Source: Pirellulales bacterium
GTDB lineage: Bacteria; Planctomycetota; Planctomycetia; Pirellulales; JAICIG01
Assembly (NCBI GenBank): GCA_035533075.1
Contig: DATLUO010000212.1
Location: forward strand, 1-47,734
Length of the DNA: 47,734 nucleotides
Direction of reading: 5' to 3'
In this document: piece by piece, positions 24,434 through 31,911 of the stretch
Layout: each line of letters begins with the position of its first letter
How positions within the stretch are numbered: the stretch's first letter is position 1
The notes under the pieces: model-generated
The model's input: only the letters and a program-made list of their open reading frames with translations
Database searches by the model: none
Told to the model about the DNA's origin: nothing
Translations under genes and position numbers: made by a program

Positions 24434-25699
24434 CTATCGCCGCGTGGGAACGGCCATCAGCACGTTGCTCACCCAGGGCGCGGCAATCGCGCCCCAGATG
24501 AAGAGCTGAACGCAGTTGAGCGATAGTCGAAACGCCGTTTCCGGAGCGATCAACAGCGGCAAGAAACCAAGTGTGCCGATGAGCGCCAGGCCGGCCGTGA
24601 ATAGCGCCATCAGCCGGCGGGGCTTGCCGGGCTGGCAACGGTAAATCGCCGAGATCGGTATGCACAACACGCCGAATACGACCGCGGCGAAATAGACTTC
24701 TTCCCGGCCGCTGGCCAGCGCCCAGCCGAGCATGCCGATGCCCGCTGCCAACGAGGCCCCCAGCCAGTTCGATGCCACCACCTGCTCGCGCGAAAGAGCC
24801 AGCCGCCCGAAGCGGTTCAACCGCAGCAACAGATTGAACAGCGGATCGGCAACCCAGGTCATCAGGGCGAAGACCACGTAGACGATGATCAGGGGCGTGA
24901 CCCAGGCCGACCATTCAGGGTTCGCCACCTCGAGATTTCTCAGGCCCCGCACGCCCAAGTAGCCGCCGATCACCACGCCCCATTGGAACCGCGGCGGCAG
25001 GCGGGCCATCCAGAAAAACCAGATCAGCATCCAACGATACACGCCGTGCCGGGCCTTCATCGCCTCGACGATGCCCCGCCGCGCCCACTCCAATTCCGGG
25101 TCGATGCGGAGCGCTTCGCGAAAGTGCTCCATCGCTTTTTGCGGCTGCCGTTGTTCGAGCAGGGTCCAGCCCTGGTTGGCGTGCGTCAGGGCCACATCGG
25201 GATTGCGCGCCAGCGCGGTGTCGATCGTGGCGCCTGCCTCCGCCCGGCGTCCGAGCTTCACCAGGCTCATGGCCCGCAGGTTGGTGCAGGCCACGTGCTC
25301 GGGATCGCAGGCCAGGCCCTCCGTCGCGGCGTCGAGCGCCTGGCGCCAGCGGCTTTGCGAAAAGTGGATGCGGGCCAGCAGGGCGAAGTAACTGGCATCG
25401 TCGGGATCGAGACGCAGGGCCTCGCTCGCCGCCGGCAGCGCCTCCTTGGGCCGGTTTCGGGCGTAAAGCACTTCGGCCAGGGCGTAGTGCGAAAACGACT
25501 GGTCGGGGCCCAAGTGGATCGCCAGCCGTGCCTCGTCCATCGCCTCCGCGTACTTCTTCAGCTCGCACAGGCAGAGCGCCAGTTGCGCATGCACGAGGGG
25601 ACTGTTCGGTTCGGCAGTCAGATGTTGCTGCAATTCGCCGATCGCGTCTTCATAGCGCGACCGCTCGATGAGCAATTGGGCCCGCGCGAAGTGACTCAT
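24434..25699 (-). CDS. TPR protein with polytopic membrane C-terminus
   Basis: 421 residues from ATG 25699, chosen because it overlaps the stop of the AAA+ gene (ATGA). Residues 1-205 hold about six TPR units (RYEDAIGELQQHLTAEPNS, KKYAEAMDEARLAIHLGPD, RPKEALPAASEALRLDPDD, SRWRQALDAATEGLACDPEH, QPQKAMEHFREALRIDPE). Residues about 220-420 contain five or so transmembrane helices. It may anchor and recruit clients for the coupled AAA+ ATPase (inference from overlap and shared TPRs). Confidence 0.75.
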   Translation of the reverse strand: MSHFARAQLLIERSRYEDAIGELQQHLTAEPNSPLVHAQLALCLCELKKYAEAMDEARLAIHLGPDQSFSHYALAEVLYARNRPKEALPAASEALRLDPDDASYFALLARIHFSQSRWRQALDAATEGLACDPEHVACTNLRAMSLVKLGRRAEAGATIDTALARNPDVALTHANQGWTLLEQRQPQKAMEHFREALRIDPELEWARRGIVEAMKARHGVYRWMLIWFFWMARLPPRFQWGVVIGGYLGVRGLRNLEVANPEWSAWVTPLIIVYVVFALMTWVADPLFNLLLRLNRFGRLALSREQVVASNWLGASLAAGIGMLGWALASGREEVYFAAVVFGVLCIPISAIYRCQPGKPRRLMALFTAGLALIGTLGFLPLLIAPETAFRLSLNCVQLFIWGAIAAPWVSNVLMAVPTRR

Positions 25700-27042
25700 C
25701 CGAGTTTCATGTGTTTGAGAATGTCGTCGTAGATGCCGCCCTGGTTCGAGTAGAGGGCGTAGTTGCGGGCGGTCGAAAACCACTCGCGGGCCGTCGGCTT
25801 GACGGCGCCGGCGGCGGCCAGCAGGTCGGCGGTGCCCAGCGGCTTGGGCACGCCCTCTTTCATCGCCAGCCGCAGCTTGCTTTCGATCGCCACGTCGACC
25901 AGCCCCTTCAGGTCGGCGCCGGAGAAATGGTCGGTCTTCTTGGCCACGTGGTTGAAGTCGATCTCGGCCACGGGCTTGCCGCGGCAAAGGATGCGCAGAA
26001 TCGCTGCCCGTGCCGTCAGATCGGGCGGCGGCACGAACAAGATGCGGTCGAAGCGGCCAGGCCGGCGGAATGCCGGATCGAGGTGCCAGGGAGCGTTTGT
26101 CGCCGCCAGAATCAGCACACCTTCGTTGGAGGTTTCGACTCCGTCGAGCTCGGCCAGAAACTGGTTGATGAGCTGCCGCCCCGCGCTGTGCTGCATGTCG
26201 GACCGGCGCGCCCCCAAGGCGTCGACTTCGTCGAAGAACAGCACGCAGGGCCGGTTGTTGCGGGCCTGCTCGAACAGCTCGTGCAGGTTCCGCTCGCTGG
26301 TGCCGATCCACATGTCGAGCACGTCGCTGATGCCGACGGCGATGAAGCCGGCTTTGATTTCGCCCGCCGTGGCGCGGGCCAGGTGCGTCTTGCCGCAGCC
26401 GGGCGGGCCATACATCAAAATGCCGCCGCCGATCGCTTTGCCGTAGGCCTGATAGATTTCCGGGTGTGTCAGCGGGTAGATGATTTTCAGGCGGATCTCT
26501 TCTTTGAGCGCGTCCATGCCGCCGACTTCGTTGAACGTGACCCTGGGCCGCTCGAGTTGCTGCGGCATGCCGCGGGGCACGTCGCCCCAGGCCTCGCGCA
26601 GCCGGCCATCGACCACGTCGGAATTGGACGAGTCTGCCCCCACGCCCAGCCGCGTGGCCAGCTCGACGTCGGCCACGGCCGCATCGGTCTCGACGGCCAG
26701 CTTGTACTGGGCCACCGCCCTTTCGACTTCGCCCGACCGCAGCAGCAGCCGGGCTTGGAGCAGATAACCCGCGGCGGGCGGGTTGCGGTCTTTGGCCAGG
26801 TCTTCGACGATCACCAGGGCCGCGCTGTCTTTGCCCTGTTGATAAAAGGCCCGTGCCAGGCCGAGCTTGAGCTGCACGTCGTGCGGCGCCATTGAGAGGG
26901 CCTTGCGATACTCGGTCTCTGACTCTTCGGCATGCCCGTGACTGAGCAACGTCTCGGCCAGATGCCGCCGCAAAGGCAGATTGTCGGGCGACAACCGCAG
27001 CGCCTCGCGCAGCGATTGCAGGGAATCATCACCGCGAGCCAT
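25696..27042 (-). CDS. AAA+ ATPase with N-terminal TPR domain
   Basis: 448 residues from ATG 27042. Residues 5-130 are TPR helices; residues about 165-400 are a classic AAA module of the Cdc48/spastin/FtsH type: Walker A GPPGCGKTH (about 210), Walker B VLFFDEVDALG (about 265), second region of homology AATNAPWHLDPAFRRPGRFDR with two arginine fingers, and sensor 2-like FSGADLKGLVD. Such ATPases unfold or remodel proteins. No protease domain is attached. The stop overlaps the start of the TPR-membrane gene by 4 nt, so the two are translationally coupled. Confidence 0.87.
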   Translation of the reverse strand: MARGDDSLQSLREALRLSPDNLPLRRHLAETLLSHGHAEESETEYRKALSMAPHDVQLKLGLARAFYQQGKDSAALVIVEDLAKDRNPPAAGYLLQARLLLRSGEVERAVAQYKLAVETDAAVADVELATRLGVGADSSNSDVVDGRLREAWGDVPRGMPQQLERPRVTFNEVGGMDALKEEIRLKIIYPLTHPEIYQAYGKAIGGGILMYGPPGCGKTHLARATAGEIKAGFIAVGISDVLDMWIGTSERNLHELFEQARNNRPCVLFFDEVDALGARRSDMQHSAGRQLINQFLAELDGVETSNEGVLILAATNAPWHLDPAFRRPGRFDRILFVPPPDLTARAAILRILCRGKPVAEIDFNHVAKKTDHFSGADLKGLVDVAIESKLRLAMKEGVPKPLGTADLLAAAGAVKPTAREWFSTARNYALYSNQGGIYDDILKHMKLG

Positions 27043-27272: not shown

Positions 27273-27536
27273 ATGAATAAAGACGAAATCCTGGCCAAGG
27301 TGGCGGCCGGCGAGTTGCCGGTCGAAGAAGCGTCCAAGCTGCTGGCCGACAAAGAGCCGAAGCGCGGCCAGCTCTATTGCAAGGTGAGCGAGAAAGGCGC
27401 CGTCAGCGTGTACGGCCTGCAACGCATGCCGGTCACGTTATACGTCGAACAATGGGAACGGTTGCTGGACTTCGGCGACGAAATCCGCACGTTTCTCAAA
27501 GAGAACGACTCGCGGCTGAAGCGGAAAGAGCGATAG
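27273..27536 (+). CDS. Small protein with SHOCT-like N-terminus
   Basis: 87 residues from ATG 27273 with AGGAAC before it. N-terminus MNKDEILAKVAAGELPVEEASKLLADK resembles the short helical 'SHOCT/DUF2089-type' oligomerisation segment, followed by a beta-rich part (YCKVSEKGAVSVYGLQRMPVTLYVEQWERLL) and a Lys/Arg tail. No known function. 24 bp before the ATP-grasp gene, so it probably leads the operon. Confidence 0.65.
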   Translation: MNKDEILAKVAAGELPVEEASKLLADKEPKRGQLYCKVSEKGAVSVYGLQRMPVTLYVEQWERLLDFGDEIRTFLKENDSRLKRKER

Positions 27537-27560
27537 CGGCTATCGCCCAACGCCTCTTCA

Positions 27561-28559
27561 ATGAAGATGTTTGTTTACGAATACTTGACCGGCGGCGGCT
27601 TGTTGGCTGATGCGGGCATGTCCGCCGGAATTGATTCGCTGGCCCGCGAGGGTCGGGCAATGTGCGCGGCGCTGGCCGCCGATTTTGCCGCGGTCGGCGG
27701 TATCGAAGTGATGTGCTTGCACGATGCACGACAGGCCGGGCTGCACGCGCCGAACGTTTGCTGGGCTGATGTACGAAGCGCGGCTGAACACGACGTGGCC
27801 TTCGACCGCGCCGCCGCCGATGCAGATCGGACGGTGGTGATCGCTCCGGAAATCGGCGGCGTTCTTTTAGAGCGCTGCCGGCGGGTGATCGCCGGCGGCG
27901 GCCGATTGCTGGGAAGCTCGCCCCGGCTGGTCGAATTGGCCGGCGATAAGCACGCGACTGCGGTGCAGCTTGCCGAAGCTGGCGTGCCGGTGCCGCGCGG
28001 CATGCCCTTCGTGCCGGGCGAACCTTGGCCGCGCGATTTTCCTTACCCTGCAGTCTGGAAGCCGCTCGACGGCGCCGGGTCGCAGGGATTGCGATTCATC
28101 GAACACAGCGAGGTTCCATGCGTTGATGCGAGTCGCCGCCGCGGCCGTTTGGAAGCGTTTTGTCCCGGCATGGCGGCGAGCGTCGCGTTGCTTTGCGGGT
28201 CGAACGAGCAGGTCGCTCTGCCCCCCTGTCGCCAGCGGCTCAGCCGAGACGGTCGGTTCCATTATCTGGGCGGCGCATTGCCGCTTCCGCCGCCCTTGTC
28301 AGACCGCGCCACACGCCTGGCGCGCCGCGCCATCCAATCGCTTCCCGGACCGCTGGGCTATCTCGGCGTCGACCTCGTGTTGGGCGAGTCCGACGACGGC
28401 AGCCGCGACGTGGTCATTGAAATCAATCCGCGGTTGACGACCTCCTACATTGGCTTGCGCGCCGCCTGCCGGCAGAACCTGGCCGCCGCCATGCTGGCCA
28501 TCGCCTCGGACGGACCGTATAACTTGTCGTTCAGTGACGAGATGATCGAGTTTCCATGA
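27561..28559 (+). CDS. ATP-grasp ligase, MfnD-like (tyramine-glutamate ligase type)
   Basis: 332 residues from ATG 27561. ATP-grasp fold: DKHATAVQLAEAGVPVPRG, FPYPAVWKPLDGAGSQGLRFI (nucleotide-binding strand), and the magnesium site EINPRLTTSYIGLRAA near the C-terminus. N-terminus FVYEYLTGGG is characteristic of ATP-grasp proteins associated with methanofuran/methylofuran synthesis. In methanogens MfnD ligates glutamate to tyramine. The two genes that follow overlap by 4 nt and match the MfnF-like hydantoinase fold and the MfnE-like kinase fold, which supports this reading more than similarity alone. The exact substrate in planctomycetes is unproven. Confidence 0.75.
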   Translation: MKMFVYEYLTGGGLLADAGMSAGIDSLAREGRAMCAALAADFAAVGGIEVMCLHDARQAGLHAPNVCWADVRSAAEHDVAFDRAAADADRTVVIAPEIGGVLLERCRRVIAGGGRLLGSSPRLVELAGDKHATAVQLAEAGVPVPRGMPFVPGEPWPRDFPYPAVWKPLDGAGSQGLRFIEHSEVPCVDASRRRGRLEAFCPGMAASVALLCGSNEQVALPPCRQRLSRDGRFHYLGGALPLPPPLSDRATRLARRAIQSLPGPLGYLGVDLVLGESDDGSRDVVIEINPRLTTSYIGLRAACRQNLAAAMLAIASDGPYNLSFSDEMIEFP

Positions 28560-29563
28560 ATCTTCTGGCTTTCGACGTTGGCGGAGCAAACCTGAAGGCG
28601 GCGGACGGCCGGGGCTTCGCCGTGAGCGAGCCATTTCCGCTCTGGCAAAGGCCGGCCGAATTGCCGGCCGCCCTGCGGGAAATCATCGCACGGGCGCCGT
28701 CCGCGGAGAAGATCGCCGTCACCATGACCGGTGAGCTGGCCGATTGCTTTGAGACCAAGGCCGAGGGCGTTGCCCACATCGTCGAGGCAGTGTGCCAGGC
28801 GGCCGGCCAACGTCCGGTGCTTGTTTACCTGACGGACGGCTCGCTCGTGCCGCCCGAACTCGCCTGCCGGCAACCATTGTTAGCGGCCGCCGCGAACTGG
28901 CATGCGCTGGCAAGTTTTGCCGGCCGGTATTGCGCGTCCGGTGGTGCGTTGCTGGTCGACGTCGGCTCCACGACCACCGACATCGTGCCGCTCGTCGATG
29001 GCCGCGTTGCCGCACAAGGCAAGAACGATCCGGAACGGCTTGCGGCGGGCGAGTTGGTCTATACCGGTGTGGTCCGCAGCCCGGTCTGCGCCGTCGTCGA
29101 TGCGCTGCCTTGGCGAAAGCAACAGGTGCCGGTGGCCGCGGAGTTGTTTGCGACCACGCGCGACGCCTATCTGCTGCTCGGCGATCTTGCCGAAGACCCG
29201 ACCGATTGCCAGACGGCGGACGGCCGTCCGGCCACGAAGTCTGCCGCCCGCGACCGCCTGGCGCGGATGATTTGCGCCGACCGCGACCTGTTCAGCCAAG
29301 AAGACGCCCTGGCGGCCGCCGTCGCCGTCGCGCGTGGCCAATTGTCGCAGCTCGGCCTCGCCGCCCGAAACGTGCTGCGACGATTGCCGGAAGTGCCGGG
29401 AACAATTGTCATCTCAGGCCAGGGAGAATTCATCGCCCGGCAACTTTGCCAGCGTCTGCAAGTGCCGGCACCGATCGTTTCGCTGGCCCAAGAACTGGGT
29501 GCGACCGTCTCGCAAGCGGCGGCGGCGCATGCGTTGGCCGTAATCGCCGGGGAACGCACGTGA
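28556..29563 (+). CDS. Hydantoinase-like H4MPT-linked C1-transfer protein (MfnF-like)
   Basis: 335 residues; start ATG 28556 overlaps the stop of the ATP-grasp gene (ATGA). Actin-like ASKHA fold shared with hydantoinase/oxoprolinase: LLAFDVGGANLKAAD at the N-terminus and LLVDVGSTTTDIVPL (about 139-151), the second phosphate-binding loop, followed by ELVYTGVVRSPVCAVVDALPW. This matches the family annotated as H4MPT-linked C1 transfer pathway protein, which includes MfnF, the enzyme that joins the furan and tyramine-glutamate parts of methanofuran. Function is inferred from family and context. Confidence 0.78.
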   Translation: MNLLAFDVGGANLKAADGRGFAVSEPFPLWQRPAELPAALREIIARAPSAEKIAVTMTGELADCFETKAEGVAHIVEAVCQAAGQRPVLVYLTDGSLVPPELACRQPLLAAAANWHALASFAGRYCASGGALLVDVGSTTTDIVPLVDGRVAAQGKNDPERLAAGELVYTGVVRSPVCAVVDALPWRKQQVPVAAELFATTRDAYLLLGDLAEDPTDCQTADGRPATKSAARDRLARMICADRDLFSQEDALAAAVAVARGQLSQLGLAARNVLRRLPEVPGTIVISGQGEFIARQLCQRLQVPAPIVSLAQELGATVSQAAAAHALAVIAGERT

Positions 29564-30153
29564 ACCAGCTCGCCGGCCCACCGGTCCGTGTCGTCAAACT
29601 GGGCGGCAGTCTTCTTGATCTGGCCGATCTGGCCGACCGGCTGCGGCGCTGGCTTGGCGAGCAACCCGCCGCAGCCAACGTGCTGGTCGTGGGCGGCGGA
29701 CGTATGGCCGACGTGGTGCGTGACTTCGACAGGCGGCATGGTCTTCGTTCAGCCGATGCCCATTGGCTGGCCATTGCCGCGATGGCGTTGAATGCACGAC
29801 TTGTGGCTGCATTGCTGCCCGAGGCCCTGTGGTTGGAATCGCTGCTCGACAACGGCATTCGCGACGCACCTTTGTCTATCCTCAATCCGGCACGCTTCCT
29901 TCGCGAGGACGAGGCCGCTGGATCGGCTGGTCGGTTGCCGATGAGTTGGCAAGCGACCAGCGACTCGATCGCCGCGCGCGCGGCTGAACTGCTGGCCGCC
30001 GACGAGTTAGTGCTGCTGAAATCAACGTCCCCGCCCGAACCGGCGACGGTTGAGGTTCTGCTCGCGGCGGGATACGTCGACGCCTTCTTTGCCAAGGCAA
30101 GCGGAGGCGTGGCGCGCGTTCGATACTGCAATTTGCGGGACGGAACCAGCTAG
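29560..30153 (+). CDS. Amino-acid-kinase-family protein (MfnE-like)
   Basis: 197 residues from GTG 29560, which overlaps the previous stop (GTGA). Short amino-acid-kinase fold: VRVVKLGGSLLD, VLVVGGGRMADVVRDFD, ADAHWLAIAAMALNA, WQATSDSIAARAAELLAADELVLLKST and a C-terminal YVDAFF. MfnE in methanogens phosphorylates the aminomethylfuran alcohol phosphate to a diphosphate for MfnF. Third gene of a tightly coupled operon. The shortness compared with aspartate kinases (about 200 versus 400+) fits the MfnE/archaeal type. Confidence 0.75.
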   Translation: MNQLAGPPVRVVKLGGSLLDLADLADRLRRWLGEQPAAANVLVVGGGRMADVVRDFDRRHGLRSADAHWLAIAAMALNARLVAALLPEALWLESLLDNGIRDAPLSILNPARFLREDEAAGSAGRLPMSWQATSDSIAARAAELLAADELVLLKSTSPPEPATVEVLLAAGYVDAFFAKASGGVARVRYCNLRDGTS

Positions 30154-30954: not shown

Positions 30955-31911
30955 TCAGGGTTTGCCCCAGCCACAGCGGAACAGATCGCCGGGATTGAGG
31001 ATGAGCGTCGCCTCGGCGGTCACATACGCCGTGCCGCGGATGCGTGGAATGATCTTGCCGTCTTCGACGCGCACCGATCCTTCGAACACGCTGCCCACGA
31101 TGCTCTCTTGCCGCCAGGTTTGTCCCTCGCGCAGCTTGCCGTCGGCATAGAGGCAGGCCAGCTTGGCGCTGGTGCCGGTACCGCAGGGCGAACGGTCGTA
31201 AGCCTTGCCTGGACAAAGCACGAAGTTGCGGCTGTCGGCATCGGGGCGGCCCGGCGGACCGAACAGCTCGATATGGTCAATTTCCTGGCCGTCGGCGCCG
31301 GTGATGCCCTGCTCGGACAACGCGCGGCGAATCCGCCACGTGACGTCGGTCAACCGTTCGACGTTGGTCAACTCGATCTGCTCGTCGTGGTCACGGACGA
31401 GAAAAAACCAGTTTCCTCCCCAGGCGACGTCCCCCACAACGGGGCCCAGGCCCGGCACATCGAGGACCACGGCAGCCGCGTGGCGATAACTGGCTACATT
31501 GTCGAGCGAGACCTGGTTGGCGCCGTCGTATTCGACGGTCACGGCGCCGACGGGCGTGTCCAGTCGATGCCGGCCGGCGCCGATGCGACCCAGATGGCCC
31601 ATCGCCACCACCACGCCGATCGTGCCGTGCCCGCACATGCCCAGACAGCCGACGTTGTTGAAAAAGATCACCCCGGCGGCACAACTCGGATCGACGGGCG
31701 GCACGAGCAGAGCGCCGACCATCACGTCGCTTCCCCGCGGCTCGTTGACGACGGCCGAGCGAAACGCATCGAACTGCTGGCGAAAGCGATCGCGGCGGGC
31801 GGCCAACGACGTCGAGCCGAGATCGGGTCCACCGGCGATCACTACCCGCGTCGGCTCGCCGCCGGTGTGCGTGTCGATGACTTGGATGCGCTGGAGTCGG
31901 GCGTCGGGCAT
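30955..31911 (-). CDS. 4-hydroxyproline 2-epimerase (proline racemase family)
   Basis: 318 residues from ATG 31911. Both catalytic cysteines are present: Cys93 in GMCGHGTIG and Cys243 in [12 protein letters not shown], which separates an epimerase/racemase from the Thr-containing 3-hydroxyproline dehydratases. [12 protein letters not shown] at the N-terminus and the C-terminal [19 protein letters not shown] are family hallmarks. It interconverts trans-4-hydroxy-L-proline and cis-4-hydroxy-D-proline in collagen or plant-wall hydroxyproline catabolism. Other pathway genes are not adjacent. Confidence 0.85.

Follow-up and report, generated by a model that had tools for sequence, protein, structure and literature searches.

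A putative methylofuran biosynthesis operon, mfnD-mfnF-mfnE, in a planctomycete of the order Pirellulales

Results

The window (the whole 47,734-nucleotide stretch of planctomycete DNA that we analyzed) carries a plus-strand unit of three overlapping genes at 27561-30153, preceded at a distance of 24 bp by an 87-residue open reading frame (ORF; Table 1). According to both the sequence and the ORF list, the mfnD- and mfnF-type genes overlap by 4 bp at ATGA and the mfnF- and mfnE-type genes by 4 bp at GTGA, exactly as the original prediction had described these overlaps and the 24-bp gap. None of the three genes contains an internal stop, and their motifs are intact. The divergent upstream neighbor is a minus-strand TPR/AAA ATPase gene (25696-27042), and the ORF that comes after it overlaps this gene and contains TPR-like and membrane stretches (24434-27042 for the pair). 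Downstream, the minus strand encodes a Uma2 protein and a 4-hydroxyproline epimerase-like protein (30955-31911; 427 bits vs. a cut-off of 450). Because these flanking genes lie on the opposite strand, the unit can include at most four plus-strand genes. A sigma-70 promoter scan returned a single match, at ~27.1 kb on the minus strand, that was not above chance.

Table 1. Genes at the window locus and related pathway genes elsewhere in the source genome
Feature	Location	Strand	Description
Conserved 87-aa ORF	27273..27536	+	24 bp 5' of the mfnD-like gene
mfnD-like gene	27561..28559	+	332 aa; ATP-grasp amide ligase; ATG at 27561; PF02655, PF18301
mfnF gene	28556..29563	+	335 aa; Hydantoinase_A family
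mfnE-like gene	29560..30153	+	197 aa; GTG start; short amino-acid-kinase family; PF00696
fae	C173		239 bits
mtdB/C-type methylene-H4MPT dehydrogenase	beside fae		Mpt_N PF09176, 108.5 bits
MyfA-like ATP-grasp ligase	beside fae, C173		closest to Azospirillum MyfA
mch	C12		392 bits
ftr/fhcD, two copies	C4, C75		205 and 140 bits
fhcA, two copies	C257, C194		743 and 697 bits
fhcB, two copies	C112, C234		489 and 432 bits
fhcC, two copies	C97, C60		253 and 246 bits
mfnB	C154		PF04476, 184 bits

In Pfam, the 332-aa protein matched ATP-grasp_3 (PF02655, 2.4e-25) and preATP-grasp_3, the 335-aa protein Hydantoinase_A (PF01968, 3.3e-21), and the 197-aa protein AA_kinase (PF00696, 1.3e-10). In NCBIfam, MfnD_Meth was the best model for the first (62 bits, next best 35) and MfnE for the last (53.9 bits, next best 30), while the 335-aa protein exceeded the cut-off of TIGR03123, "H4MPT-linked C1 transfer" (307.3 vs. 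244.1 bits, over residues 6-330 of 335). The original assignment to the MfnD, MfnF, and MfnE families was therefore upheld, as the named model was the best specific family for each protein and TIGR03123 was passed. All three proteins fell below their equivalog cut-offs: MfnD with 62 vs. 400 bits (NF040722), MfnF with 187.8 vs. 520 (NF040623), and MfnE with 53.9 vs. 300 (NF040622). Proteobacterial counterparts scored similarly, with 68 bits in Azospirillum and 50 in Thiodictyon on the MfnD model, both below 400, 106 bits on NF040623 for Azospirillum MfnF, which comes from a complete fhc/mch/fae cluster, and 65.7 bits for Thiodictyon MfnE. Because these tested counterparts also fall short, we infer that the cut-offs mark methanogen enzymes and their close archaeal relatives rather than function. 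Since MfnD and MfnE lie far below thresholds trained on methanogens, their exact substrates rest on context.

Further comparisons characterized each protein. The 332-aa protein shares 39% identity with Azospirillum mfnD (E 2e-36) and was not matched by MyfA (OrfY), which instead matched the ATP-grasp protein beside fae (E 1.5e-39), whose MfnD score is 17. The window protein is thus distinct from MyfA and is predicted to be a tyramine/tyrosine--L-glutamate ligase (orf1 of methylotrophs); a PDB search with it returned general ATP-grasp proteins only. For MfnF, the alignment to the archaeal structure 3c0b/3cet spans 327 residues (E 6.5e-39), and the predicted role of the protein (orf9 of methylotrophs) is to join furan pyrophosphate to the Glu-tyramine/tyrosine unit. 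In MfnE, the motifs KxGGSL, GGG, TSDS, and LxK are invariant in nine aligned sequences (the window protein and eight homologues), and the first three also occur in PDB 7qrh. The protein (orf21 of methylotrophs) is a predicted kinase of 5-(aminomethyl)-3-furanmethanol phosphate.

The source genome (8.5 Mb, 99% complete) encodes fae, mtdB/C, mch, and fhcABCD, the genes that the original prediction had listed for a search (Table 1). Its statement that Planctomycetes hold H4MPT-dependent C1 enzymes was thus borne out in this genome by fae, an mtdB/C-type dehydrogenase, mch, and fhcA/B/C/D. Because fhcABCD and mch, whose absence had been named as counter-evidence, are both encoded, the cofactor interpretation stands. 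Within this genome, mfnD-mfnF-mfnE is not near the remaining pathway genes, and mfnB lies on another contig. About 4 kb separate the fhcD copy on C4 from a gene for the large subunit of a NiFe hydrogenase (PF00374, 82 bits; L009 6872-7774 and 11865-13370), which a maturation-protease-like ORF adjoins.

To place the operon within its order, we compared the source genome with 56 relatives (57 genomes in total). We detected mfnF in 49 of the 57. Among 29 other genomes, mfnD was directly upstream of mfnF in 24, mfnE was directly downstream in 21, and the full mfnD-mfnF-mfnE order was kept in 18, so the grouping is not due to chance. Some named Planctomycetota genomes have the same arrangement, and the best matches among named genomes come from Planctomycetota (mostly metagenome-assembled genomes), at no more than 59% identity.

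The presence of mfnF also tracked that of fhcC. Both genes occurred in 46 genomes and neither in 6, with mfnF alone in 3 and fhcC alone in 2 (Fisher p 6e-5, in a test that treats the genomes as independent despite their shared ancestry). Both genomes with fhcC alone are incomplete. In the three with mfnF alone (G014, G030, and G049), fhcC was not recognized, which may reflect assembly gaps; G014 and G030 belong to one genus, and both carry a selenocysteine-type fmdB (see below). In family f18, one genome has both genes (G043) and two have neither (G018 and G034), and both genes are missing from all four genomes of family f17. This distribution makes at least two joint losses of mfnF and fhcC within the order likely.

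The genome search also yielded a side result on fhcB/fmdB. The copy on C112 (4134-5387) contains one in-frame TGA at the Mo/W-ligand position (TSL-U-HGP; L079 position 1825); in the C234 copy, this position is Gly. A TGA occupies the same site in nine relatives (G001, G003, G008, G014, G021, G027, G030, G035, and G043), and related fmdB genes of other genomes encode Cys. One copy in G009 (C156, L103) has Ala at this position (AASV-A-HGP), a third state beside Sec/Cys and Gly. Upstream of the C112 fmdB lies fmdD (PF01568, 45.6 bits); between the two, at ~1250-1399 of L079, is an ORF of ~49 aa that ends in MPRRVRGSCQGRALG and has no Pfam match. The gene order in the relatives is fmdD-fmdB-fmdA-fmdC, and their fmdA and fmdC are closest to the C194 fmdA and C97 fmdC of the source genome. 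In G001 (C286, L129), the Sec-fmdB/fmdD pair adjoins fhcD, linking the selenocysteine set with a formyltransferase.

The source genome encodes a tRNA-Sec with anticodon UCA, and in G035 such a gene lies ~3.3 kb from fmdB. Strong tRNA-Sec matches were found in 9 of the 10 genomes with a TGA-containing fmdB vs. 11 of the 47 others (p 1.5e-4). Located ~20 nt beyond the UGA is a conserved hairpin, whose changes are all one-sided and which weakly suggests a SECIS element. Together, the C112 FmdB and its relatives are probably selenoprotein formylmethanofuran dehydrogenases found in several families of the order. A Sec-type fmdB with the same operon, including fmdD, was reported in one planctomycete in 2016 (PMC4807772), and our result is an extension of that case, not a discovery.

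Discussion

We observed the gene identities, the operon layout, the listed pathway genes, and their co-occurrence directly, and we consider it about 90% probable that window positions 27561-30153 hold an mfnD-mfnF-mfnE operon making part of methylofuran, the bacterial formyl carrier and a furan-based C1 carrier of a type originally discovered in methanogens. By analogy with work in Methylorubrum, Methylobacillus, and methanogens, MfnB, encoded elsewhere in the genome, would make furan phosphate, which a putative transaminase (MfnC) would aminate and MfnE would then phosphorylate to the pyrophosphate. MfnD would join glutamate to tyrosine or tyramine, and MfnF would couple this half with the furan pyrophosphate half. 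The MyfA-like ligase beside fae probably lengthens the glutamate chain. The finished methylofuran would take the formyl groups of formyl-H4MPT in the Fhc/Fmd complexes of this genome, a transfer that would complete the route by which formaldehyde is oxidized (fae, mtdB/C-type dehydrogenase, mch, ftr/fhc).

MfnA is a tyrosine decarboxylase required solely for the tyramine-type cofactor. None of the 57 genomes had an MfnA match (TIGR03812) above the cut-off of 299.4; the best in the source genome reached 51 bits, among weak PLP-decarboxylase matches. Bacteria make methylofuran, whose core is tyrosine or tyramine and which carries a polyglutamate chain (PMC8141765). Given this bacterial product and the missing MfnA, the original label of a "methanofuran-type" cofactor was too wide. 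Several methylotrophs encode MfnD homologues, among them the tyrosine-type producer Methylomicrobium album, and tyramine-type producers without an MfnA homologue have also been reported (PMC8141765). Because such producers exist, the absence of MfnA does not settle the core type, and we lean only weakly toward tyrosine. The LC-MS survey of methylofuran in that study covered proteobacteria only (PMC8141765).

The operon resembles several known systems. In Azospirillum, mfnB, mfnD, and mfnF lie in one cluster with fhcC, fhcD, fhcA, fhcB, RFAP synthase, mtdB, a MyfA-type ATP-grasp, mch, a RimK-type (MyfB-like) ligase, and fae; in both Azospirillum and Thiodictyon (annotated plasmid clusters), mfnB, mfnD, and mfnF stand side by side. 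With these clusters and the methylofuran genes of methylotrophs (orf1/orf9/orf21/orf22, myfA, myfB; PMC8141765), the planctomycete genes share the position of mfnD directly upstream of mfnF, membership in the same families at similar scores, and the companions fae, mtdB, mch, fhcABCD, and mfnB. Unlike in these systems, mfnE directly follows mfnF here, and the remaining pathway genes are scattered. The methanofuran pathway of Methanocaldococcus jannaschii (MfnA-MfnF) shares homologous MfnB, D, E, and F, with MfnF aligning at full length to 3c0b, but the planctomycete lacks an MfnA above cut-off, and its MfnD and MfnE are distant. In contrast to archaeal methanofuran, the glutamate chain may be of the bacterial type, as the MyfA-like ligase encoded next to fae suggests.

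In its own genome, the 87-aa gene shares the strand of mfnD at close spacing, and the protein is strongly conserved, with 31 of 88 alignment columns invariant over 12 sequences. These features could suggest a new pathway component, as the original prediction had proposed, for example a regulator or assembly factor co-expressed with mfnD. However, none of the 29 other mfnF loci has this gene within 1.5 kb. Its homologues in 10 other genomes (60-89% identity) have unrelated neighbors each time, for example a two-component system, a transporter, or a glucose-6-phosphate-dehydrogenase-like gene (names read from sequence), and even in G001, a member of the same family, the 89% identical homologue is on a different contig from mfnF. 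Two genomes that lack mfnF and fhcC keep it (G017 and G033), and it occurs in only 8 of the 49 genomes with mfnF (absent from 41) vs. 3 of the 8 without, an association in the negative direction (p 0.17). The AlphaFold2 model (pLDDT 84, pTM 0.50) contains two helices, three strands, and a long helix and matched nothing in the PDB with an E below 0.66; the earlier "SHOCT-like" label is also weak, at 13.4 bits vs. a cut-off of 27. On synteny, occurrence, and neighborhood, we therefore reject the gene as a methylofuran-pathway component, a role that we regard as very improbable. With neither mfnF synteny nor a positive association elsewhere, it is most simply, and probably, a chance neighbor of the operon, although read-through transcription may occur.

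The three operon genes themselves could be read in two other ways. They might be look-alikes from unrelated ATP-grasp, hydantoinase, and amino-acid-kinase pathways (e.g., 5-oxoproline, arginine, or UMP metabolism), to which the low equivalog scores of MfnD and MfnE lend some weight. This is highly unlikely given that Mfn models were the best specific match for all three proteins, that the TIGR03123 cut-off was exceeded, and that the gene set co-occurs with fhc. Alternatively, the cofactor genes might persist as relics of an H4MPT/methylofuran pathway that has gone out of use, as the scatter of unclustered pathway genes over many contigs might suggest. The uninterrupted genes with intact motifs, the full-length duplicated fhc genes, and the correlated presence across the order argue against such decay, which we judge to be the least probable of these readings.

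The two fhcB/fmdB copies raise the tentative possibility, which we put at somewhat short of even odds, that a single planctomycete uses two methylofuran-dependent complexes, one a hydrolytic Fhc whose metal-ligand residue is Gly, the other a redox-active formylmethanofuran dehydrogenase with selenocysteine (UGA-containing FmdB with FmdD, A, and C). If so, the cofactor would connect the oxidation of formaldehyde with formate as well as with CO2 and electrons, or would permit CO2 reduction. The fmdD of this genome contradicts the claim that Planctomycetes lack fwdD, but fmdD had already been reported in one (PMC4807772).

H4MPT/methanofuran genes have been known in planctomycetes since 2004, and the reports cited in PMC5020050 (Chistoserdova 2004, 2013) share with our genome the phylum and the C1 gene set. 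We are highly confident that the operon serves methylofuran biosynthesis, and it is a further example of such genes in a phylum already known for them (PMC5020050). The sole claim of novelty in the original prediction, which concerned the 87-aa gene, is unsupported, and that gene is dropped as a pathway candidate. What the pathway does in non-methylotrophs has been termed enigmatic (PMC5020050). What emerges is a planctomycete order in which most methylofuran genes accompany the cofactor-dependent enzymes and the two sets tend to be lost jointly, which predicts that methylofuran would be found in cultured members of the order.
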